64,000 bases of DNA from Polyangiaceae bacterium. GTDB lineage: Bacteria > Myxococcota_A > Polyangia > Polyangiales > Polyangiaceae. The notes below the pieces were generated by a model that was given only the letters and a program-made list of their open reading frames with translations, ran no database searches and was not told the origin of the DNA. The translations under genes and the position numbers were made by a program. The DNA lies in the NCBI GenBank assembly GCA_019637265.1, contig JAHBVY010000001.1:806001-870000 (forward strand), written 5' to 3'. This document shows, one piece after another, positions 52,291-63,233 of this stretch (position 1 is its first letter; the number at the start of each line of letters is the position of its first letter).

Positions 52291-53019
52291 TCAGCGCTGG
52301 CCAACCCCCTCGAGCACCATGCGCACCAGCGCCTGGGCGGCGTCGGTGGGGCTCCCCAGATCTTCCCCTTCGAAGAAGGCGATGAGCAGGCTCTCCACCG
52401 CGCCCACCACCGCGAAGGCCGTGATCTTCGGCGGCAGATCGCGCAGCAGGTGCTGCCGGTGCGCGACCTCCGTGAGCGCCACCGCGGCGGCGGTGATTGA
52501 ATCGCGAAGCTGACGAATAGGCAGCCGCGCTCCCTCCGCAGGCCCGCGGCACTCTTGGAGGTAGAGCTTCACGAGCCGCGGCTCACGCAGCGCCGCTTGA
52601 CCGAGCCGCATCGCGAGCGCCTGGTAAGCGGCGGAGAGCTCCGCCGAGGAGCCCGCGCGGGCGAGCGCCCCGGCGCACTCGGAGAACGCCTGCTCCATTT
52701 CCTTGCGGAGAGGCGCGAACAGCGCGTCCACCACCTGGCCCTTGTCCTCGAAGTAGCGATAGAAGCTGCCCTTGGCGACGCCCGCCGCCTTGGTGATCTC
52801 GTCCACCGTCACGCGCTCCACGCCGCGCTCGAGGAACTCCCCCAACGCCGCCGCACACAGCCCGAGCGTGCGCTCTTGACGGTTTCGGTCGCGCTTGCCC
52901 CCCGCCTTCCCAGGGCGCTGCTCGGGCACCCGCCCCGGCTCGAACCAGGGCGCGTCTGGGCCGGCGTCGGCCGCGCCAGGAGCCTCCGCTTCGGAGGGCT
53001 GCTTCGGGGAGGTGCTCAT
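52291..53019 (-). CDS. TetR-family transcriptional regulator
   Basis: 242 residues from ATG 53019. A Pro/Ala-rich head of about 50 residues precedes the HTH domain: RTLGLCAAALGEFLERG, then VTVDEITKAAGVAKGSFYRYF, the typical TetR recognition helix. The C-terminal ligand domain is helical and variable. It is divergent from a fatty-acid hydroxylase whose -10 box lies inside a perfect 17-bp palindrome, so it most likely represses that gene in response to a lipid or acyl-CoA; the ligand is inferred, not visible. Confidence 0.92.
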   Translation of the reverse strand: MSTSPKQPSEAEAPGAADAGPDAPWFEPGRVPEQRPGKAGGKRDRNRQERTLGLCAAALGEFLERGVERVTVDEITKAAGVAKGSFYRYFEDKGQVVDALFAPLRKEMEQAFSECAGALARAGSSAELSAAYQALAMRLGQAALREPRLVKLYLQECRGPAEGARLPIRQLRDSITAAAVALTEVAHRQHLLRDLPPKITAFAVVGAVESLLIAFFEGEDLGSPTDAAQALVRMVLEGVGQR

Positions 53020-53115: not shown

Positions 53116-53144
53116 TTGACAGATCCCCTCCCGCCTAATATCAT
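53116..53144 (+). promoter_or_regulatory. Sigma-70-type promoter of the fatty-acid hydroxylase gene
   Basis: TTGACA (53116-53121), a 17-bp spacer, and TATCAT (53139-53144, 5 of 6 matches). It is the best consensus promoter seen in the window. The leader to the ATG at 53198 would be about 45 bases. Confidence 0.78.
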
Positions 53145-53169
53145 GACTTTTCAGTCATGATATTAGGCG
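53132..53169. promoter_or_regulatory. Perfect 17-bp inverted repeat, likely TetR operator
   Basis: CGCCTAATATCATGACT (53132-53148) and its exact complement (53153-53169) flank TTTC. It overlaps the -10 box and start region of the promoter and so is well placed for repression. An inner TGACT/AGTCA dyad centres on the same point. The neighbouring regulator gene is tetR. Confidence 0.82.
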
Positions 53170-53197
53170 CCGCCACGCGCGTGAGATCGGAGGAACG

Positions 53198-53776
53198 ATG
53201 ATTGGGATCCCAGTCGGCCTGTTGGCCGCCAATGCGTTCGAGTGGGTGGTTCATCGCTACGTGCTGCACGGCCTCGGGCGGCGGAAGCAGAGCTTCTGGG
53301 CCTTCCACTGGCACGAGCACCACGGCGCCTCGCGGCGCGGAGGCATGCACGATGAGCACTACGAGCGGGCGCCGCTCGGCTGGCACGCGCAGGGCAAGGA
53401 GCTGTTGGGGCTGACGGGGGTGGCGGTGGCGGTCTCCGCGCTGTGGCCGGTGGCGCCCTTCTTCGTCATGACCGCGTACTACTCCGCGTTCAACTACTAC
53501 CGCGTCCACAAGCGCTCGCATCAAGACCCGGAGTGGGCGCGCCAGCACCTGCCCTGGCACTACGATCATCACATGGGCCCTGACCAACACAAGAACTGGT
53601 GCGTCACCCGGCCCTGGTTCGACCAGCTGATGGGCACCCGTGAGCCCTACGTGGGCACCGAGCGCGAGGCGGCGGATCGAGCCCGCGCGGAGGCGCGCCG
53701 AGCGCGTAGGTCGGCCGCACCGTCGGCTGCGGCGGCCCAGGCGACGGCCGAGCCAACGGCGACGGCTGGAGCGTGA
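53198..53776 (+). CDS. Fatty-acid hydroxylase / sterol-desaturase-family di-iron protein
   Basis: 192 residues with a strong GGAGG ribosome site. The three histidine clusters of the integral-membrane di-iron hydroxylases are seen: HRYVLH (about 19-24), HWHEHH (about 37-42) and HYDHH near HLPWHYDHHMGPDQH. Hydrophobic helices lie at the start and around LLGLTGVAVAVSALWPVAPFFVM. It probably hydroxylates a lipid or carotenoid; the small size resembles CrtZ-like and related hydroxylases. The last 30 residues are Ala/Arg-rich. Control by the divergent TetR is likely. Confidence 0.87.
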   Translation: MIGIPVGLLAANAFEWVVHRYVLHGLGRRKQSFWAFHWHEHHGASRRGGMHDEHYERAPLGWHAQGKELLGLTGVAVAVSALWPVAPFFVMTAYYSAFNYYRVHKRSHQDPEWARQHLPWHYDHHMGPDQHKNWCVTRPWFDQLMGTREPYVGTEREAADRARAEARRARRSAAPSAAAAQATAEPTATAGA

Positions 53777-63197: not shown

Positions 63198-63233
63198 CTA
63201 GGACGACAAACGGTAAACCGTTTGTCGTCCTAG
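63198..63233 (-). terminator. Perfect 16-bp inverted repeat over a stop codon, terminator-like
   Basis: CTAGGACGACAAACGG (63198-63213) pairs exactly with 63218-63233 around TAAA. The TAG stop of the right-edge gene (63230-63232) lies in one arm. No U-tract follows; a GTAGGGGC-type element adjoins it on the low-coordinate side. It separates that gene from htpG. Confidence 0.6.

Follow-up and report, generated by a model that had tools for sequence, protein, structure and literature searches.

A palindromic sequence as the probable operator of a divergent TetR repressor and lipid hydroxylase gene pair in a Polyangiaceae bacterium and its relatives

Promoter-like sequence, dyad and gene pair at the locus

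The window, a 64-kb stretch of DNA from a Polyangiaceae bacterium, carries a TetR-type repressor gene (tetR) and, divergent from it, a gene for a small histidine-rich membrane hydroxylase, with a promoter-like sequence and a long perfect dyad placed between the two (Table 1). The sequence TTGACA-17-TATCAT (53116-53144) is the sole promoter-like match in 13 kb, where 0.3 would be expected, and the top sigma-70-like match of the entire 64 kb, with agreement at 11 of 12 positions and 10 for the runner-up; the earlier note had singled it out as the window's best promoter, and it is. Since one of 20 mononucleotide shuffles of the window also reached the best score of 11, the promoter match does not decide the matter by itself.

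The arms of the dyad (53132-53148 and 53153-53169) measure 17 nt each, are 100% complementary and enclose a 4-nt spacer, for a total of 38 bp. The -10 element does lie within a perfect palindrome between tetR and the hydroxylase gene, as claimed previously, the 17 bp given then being the length of each arm. Such arms are beyond chance expectation, as the longest in the 20 shuffles reached only 9-12 nt. The description of an AT-rich island in GC-rich DNA likewise holds, with 61% AT in the dyad vs 30% in the window and only 0.017% of 38-mers equally AT-rich. The dyad is present as a single copy in the 5.7-Mb genome (search with 13-bp arms and up to 3 mismatches).

A long dyad is not in itself unique within the window, because a second perfect one with 17-bp arms and a 2-nt loop is found at 63198-63233. 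A gene on the minus strand ends at 63230, and this second dyad sits at or just past its stop codon, has a T-run on neither side and is perhaps a terminator hairpin.

Table 1. Positions of genes and sequence elements in the window
Feature	Position	Strand	Basis or remark
tetR, TetR-type repressor, 242 aa if the start is 53019 (alternative start 53040)	52291-53019	-	PF00440
Codons of the conserved N-terminal arm RPGKAGGKRDRNR, residues 35-47	52879-52917	-	Alignment of 52 sequences
-35 element of the hydroxylase promoter, TTGACA	53116-53121	+	Promoter scan; enriched -35-like hexamer in relatives
Whole perfect dyad	53132-53169	.	Two 17-bp arms, spacer TTTC
Extended operator AWAnnRTGACYRWWYRGTCAYnnTWT, here ATATCATGACTTTTCAGTCATGATAT	53138-53163	.	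Logo, flank counts, genome search
-10 element, TATCAT	53139-53144	+	In left arm; overlaps first base of the operator core
Operator core TGACT-N4-AGTCA (TGAC-N6-GTCA)	53144-53157	.	Footprinting in divergent-tetR loci
Likely ribosome-binding site of the hydroxylase gene, GGAGG	53189-53193	+	Sequence
Small histidine-rich membrane hydroxylase, 192 aa, FA_hydroxylase/Scs7p type	53198-53776	+	His pattern, fold, relatives' PF04116

Predicted properties of the repressor and the enzyme

The window TetR matches the TetR_N helix-turn-helix family PF00440 at E 4.9e-14 (52.3 bits, cut-off 24), as do 52 of 52 aligned homologues at E <=0.001, and its AF2 model is all helical, with a mean pLDDT of 84.6 and low confidence at the N-terminus. 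A fold search with this model retrieves 326 PDB chains at E <=0.001, and among the 50 matches listed all are transcription regulators, most of them named TetR-type. The TetR-family FadR proteins of Bacillus (PDB 3whb/3whc, 5gp9) and Thermus (3anp), for which acyl-CoA-bound structures exist, head these matches at about 14-20% identity in the fold alignments, with the drug or steroid binders TtgR, MtrR and EthR close behind. The FadR-like fold therefore makes a lipid a plausible ligand of the modelled protein but, because TtgR, MtrR and EthR follow so closely, is no proof of an acyl-CoA ligand. The TetR scores 24.1 bits against the NCBIfam FadR model NF053878, below its cut-off of 200, and 41.1 bits against the MftR equivalog TIGR03968, below its cut-off of 224.9. 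FadR controls a fatty-acid degradation regulon, and unlike FadR the window TetR has a conserved RPGxxGGxR arm and, as its presumed target, a single divergent gene.

This arm, with the motif RPGxxGGxRxxNR, directly precedes the first helix of TetR, and in the alignment of 52 sequences R35 is conserved in 92%, P36 in 98%, G37 in 96%, G40 in 98%, and G41, R43 and R47 in 100%. Mean conservation over residues 28-47 is 0.62, compared with 0.64 for the helix-turn-helix and 0.51 for the ligand domain. We propose that the Arg/Gly/Pro arm may contact the AT-rich flanks of the operator. A precedent comes from SimR, a TetR repressor that is said to control simocyclinone efflux and reportedly binds the minor groove with a flexible N-terminal extension. 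MftR of mycobacteria, the second-best NCBIfam match of the window TetR, is described in passages of PMC8728441 as a TetR-like repressor that long-chain acyl-CoAs release from its operator, a 27-bp palindrome 5' of the target gene; as given there, its operator reads T-N2-GGCA-N5-TGCC-N2-A in place of TGAC-N6-GTCA, and its target is a cofactor gene cluster instead of a hydroxylase. Searches of open-licence PMC text by motif string and by topic found no literature on the present TetR subfamily or gene pair.

For the enzyme, ten histidines invariant in 65 sequences (H19, H24, H37, H41, H42, H104, H108, H121, H124 and H125) form four clusters, HxxxxH, HxxxHH, HxxxH and HxxHH; such histidines bind metal in Scs7p. 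Foldseek with the hydroxylase model (pLDDT 95.9) places yeast Scs7p in the three top rows, with probabilities of 0.99-1.00 and E-values of 0.05-0.07, none reaching 0.001. The VIA comparison with Scs7p gives Z 9.1 over 134 residues at 3.1 A, with 2.5 for the next unrelated entry; a Z under about 13 may with this aligner reflect a common arrangement in helical proteins, a reading opposed here by the matching His clusters and by the relatives' matches to PF04116. Of 15 relatives aligned with the window protein, 11 match that family at E <=1 (best 1.1e-10), and the window protein itself has no match to it even at E <=10. The earlier assignment as a fatty-acid hydroxylase is accordingly carried by the relatives and the fold, and not by a Pfam match of the window protein. 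A PDB sequence search with the hydroxylase profile returned nothing at E <=1.

As modelled, the window enzyme resembles a compact hydroxylase of the Scs7p/FA2H type. FA2H enzymes have a cytochrome b5 domain, for which the window protein, unlike them, has no room at 192 aa. The predicted fold is common to the Scs7p/FA2H fatty acid 2-hydroxylases (PDB 4zr0, 4zr1), at about 17% identity. Functional FA2H-like 2-hydroxylases in myxobacteria are noted in passages of PMC10002949 (citing Ring et al. 2009), and myxobacteria are reported to make 2-hydroxy fatty acids.

Conservation of the probable operator across loci and genomes

Phylogenetic footprinting drew on the best 80 of 147 named hydroxylase-encoding loci, 47 of the 80 bearing titles that by our own reading name a myxobacterial taxon. 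A divergent homologue of the window tetR is present in 52 of these best 80, and an open search of the 200 bp upstream of the hydroxylase for all 4-base inverted repeats with spacers of 0-14 (3840 tests) ranked TGAC-N6-GTCA at the top, with exact occurrences in 50 of the 52 divergent-tetR loci and none in the other two, all such locus counts being of related sequences and not of independent events. The two runners-up (17 and 13 loci) read this same site in shifted register, and the most frequent dyad unrelated to it occurs in 13. By locus label, TGAC-N6-GTCA is found in 47 of 49 tetR-adjacent loci, 9 of 30 others and 8 of 2433 control windows, which are 200-bp windows from elsewhere in these loci; TGACYNNNNRGTCA is found in 44 of 49, 7 of 30 and 0 of 2433, respectively. 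L142 is left out of both sets of counts for its truncated gene. The tetR-adjacent label misses L106, L140 and L149, in which the frame continues, and on recount a divergent tetR is present at two of the 7 other loci with TGACYNNNNRGTCA. Among the 52, L106 and L115 encode TetRs of a distant subfamily (119 and 124 bits), and their cores differ inside TGAC-N6-GTCA.

Symmetric AT blocks that had not been selected for flank the core, with AWA at positions -6 to -4 in 39, TWT at the mirror positions in 37 and both in 31 of 51 sites; the window site has both. Furthermore, 28 of 51 sites (2.06 in shuffles) have a hexamer that matches TTGACA at no fewer than 5 of 6 positions and begins 22-34 nt ahead of the core; part of this signal may be coding, because the hexamer appears to overlap the tetR start codon in some relatives. 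The divergent pair recurs in the order, and the nearest relative, G001, of the same genus as the window, retains the gene pair, the site and TTGACA. The outermost pairs of the window's 17-bp arms fall outside the consensus and are peculiar to its genome. The arms span 12 and 10 bp in L091 and L093, and the outer extension is absent in 53 of 66 sites. Footprinting thus lends strong, sequence-based support to the earlier proposal of a repressor site for the adjacent TetR and at the same time confines the conserved part to 26 bp inside the dyad. The window's extreme symmetry may have arisen by template switching on a quasi-palindrome, or by selection for tighter binding.

Across the order's 183 genomes the exact extended pattern occurs at 14 places in 12 genomes, compared with 0 for a reversed-pattern control. 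Twelve of the 14 places belong to this tetR/hydroxylase pair, and the remaining two lie in relatives (G001:C551:2270 and G130:C433:2841; L215 and L214). The tetR, present in 64 of the 183 genomes, occurs in all 12, and the pattern is strict, as it marks 12 genomes vs the 52 of 183 with the hydroxylase. In the window's own genome the extended pattern occurs once, at the window site, while the bare core occurs at 12 places vs 7 for its reversed-pattern control, so that with the core near background only the extended pattern is informative. A crude filter on third-position GC puts seven of the 11 other bare-core places within an open frame. A wider regulon in this genome was dropped from consideration on these counts, and the window TetR is perhaps a local repressor with one target. 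In further genomes of the phylum, the exact core is present in 3 of 9 new arm-bearing hydroxylase-adjacent loci, and in the remaining six it is off by 1 or 2 mismatches.

Several loci depart from the common arrangement. The hydroxylase of L017 (G055:C143:7003-7161) is recognisable only over its N-terminal third, 53 residues, after which unrelated sequence follows, and the divergent tetR and full extended operator remain, as in a decaying target with an intact switch. Marinobacter genomes also have the hydroxylase (L103, L107 and L118; 68-70% identity). The DNA retrieved for these loci contains no homologue of the window tetR, and the 200 bp before the gene lack the core site, a distribution suggestive of transfer between phyla. 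L132 and L142, on contigs labelled Euryarchaeota and Woesearchaeota, also encode the hydroxylase and are possibly misbinned or transferred.

A predicted switch, its alternatives and the repressor arm

We consider it highly probable, from comparative sequence evidence, that the palindrome is the operator of the adjacent TetR in a two-gene repressor switch for a lipid hydroxylase; with repressor, site and enzyme recurring together in many relatives, the switch appears genuine and its type ordinary. A role of the dyad as RNA, in a leader hairpin or a terminator/attenuator, would draw on the expectation that perfect 17-bp arms with a 4-nt loop fold well. With TATCAT as the -10 element, however, transcription would begin within the loop region, and the relatives' sites have short arms, a fixed spacing and a kept sequence; their inner positions do not covary (TA 16, TG 11, CG 11, CA 8 and four others at position 4/9), which fits two protein-read half-sites and not an RNA stem. 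An Rfam search returned no match at E <=1, and the RNA hairpin was judged very unlikely on these grounds. The long perfect inverted repeat could also be the end of a repeat or mobile element inserted here, an idea with next to no probability that was rejected upon finding one genome copy at <=3 mismatches; relatives, moreover, have shorter sites at the same place.

The site could instead be the genuine operator of another regulator, with the neighbouring TetR incidental, as the core is present without a divergent tetR in L084, L085, L090, L097 and L104, and as in G040/G049 (L034, L035) the tetR homologue lies on a different contig with the exact site absent upstream within the fetched locus, and the hydroxylase retains a site with one or two mismatches. 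We regard this as improbable, given that the core tracks the divergent tetR in the locus counts above, that the split-pair genomes G098, G099, G078 and G040/G049 all have a tetR of the same family elsewhere, and that the TGAC-N6-GTCA spacing fits a TetR dimer. Also unlikely, if somewhat less so, is that tetR autoregulation is the main role of the site and the hydroxylase promoter a secondary target. The operator does lie in the shared intergenic region, a median of 67 bp away from where the TetR model match begins, and G033, with a tetR and no hydroxylase, has TGACCCCGCGGTCA 41 bp before its tetR match. The median distance of the operator to the hydroxylase start is nevertheless 44.5 bp, near a -35 element on the hydroxylase strand, the window operator is >110 bp from the tetR start codon, and split loci retain the operator at the hydroxylase and not at tetR. 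Control of tetR by its own product may well accompany repression of the hydroxylase gene.

In the switch that we favor, a TetR dimer would bind the 26-bp operator, its helix-turn-helix reading the TGAC/GTCA half-sites and its conserved Arg/Gly/Pro N-terminal arm the outer AWA/TWT. The core is centred at 53150.5, approximately at the expected transcription start, so the bound dimer would cover both the -10 element and the start point, block RNA polymerase and silence the hydroxylase gene. Release of TetR by a ligand, in the likeliest case a fatty acyl-CoA or related lipid, would then allow the hydroxylase to be made, and the Scs7p/FA2H-like membrane enzyme would presumably hydroxylate a membrane lipid or acyl chain. 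Local repressors of the TetR type are well known, and the window pair is very probably a new, widely shared example. It would provide a precise operator for a TetR subfamily that in many myxobacteria and their relatives is coupled with a single enzyme, and it predicts how these bacteria would control lipid hydroxylation.

Repressors with and without the N-terminal arm form a natural series for how TetR proteins read DNA beyond the half-sites. Of 46 loci whose TetR has the arm, one has two exact sites and 45 have fewer; of 9 loci whose TetR lacks it, 7 have two (8 once a window that had been cut short is put right), where L148 counts as arm-less by the search pattern yet has a similar stretch, and where 3 of the 9 rows (G078, G098 and G099, with tetR elsewhere in the genome) were known to have two sites before the table was made. 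With up to 1 mismatch allowed, loci with fewer than two and with two sites number 37 and 9 with the arm, and 2 and 7 without it. The two-site lineages amount to about five, because G174-G176 and G098/G099 are same-genus sets. The tandem exact TGAC-N6-GTCA sites upstream of the hydroxylase are 24-27 or 52-57 bp apart. These counts leave out L083, L092, L106, L115, L138 and L149, in which the motif was not found, the tetRs without hydroxylase L207-L210, and the arm-bearing pairs L212, L216 and L217, of which the first has no exact site and the other two one each (L217 is the contig of L116). A more ambitious scheme, of a lineage-wide and nearly single-target TetR switch that governs Scs7p-like lipid hydroxylation across myxobacteria and relatives, in which the helix-turn-helix reads TGAC, the RPGxxGGxR arm reads AWA/TWT, and a tandem operator compensates for loss of the arm, is offered tentatively and is in our estimation rather unlikely.

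A check in further genomes of the phylum covered 40 regions, 11 of them on contigs already seen and four (L225, L228, L231 and L240) dropped as the motif was not found. The exact tandem pair was not found in these genomes, which yielded only two new close arm-less hydroxylase loci, L235 and L238; both have degenerate sites only, with 1 mismatch in one and 2 in the other, at a distance of 55 bp. Tandem sites accompany an arm-less TetR in L198, L199, L200, L204, L205, L206, L211 and L213. A more distant arm-less TetR subfamily, L244-L247, has no hydroxylase motif in the fetched upstream stretch and is preceded by a different, related dyad, ACTGAC-N6-GTCAGT.
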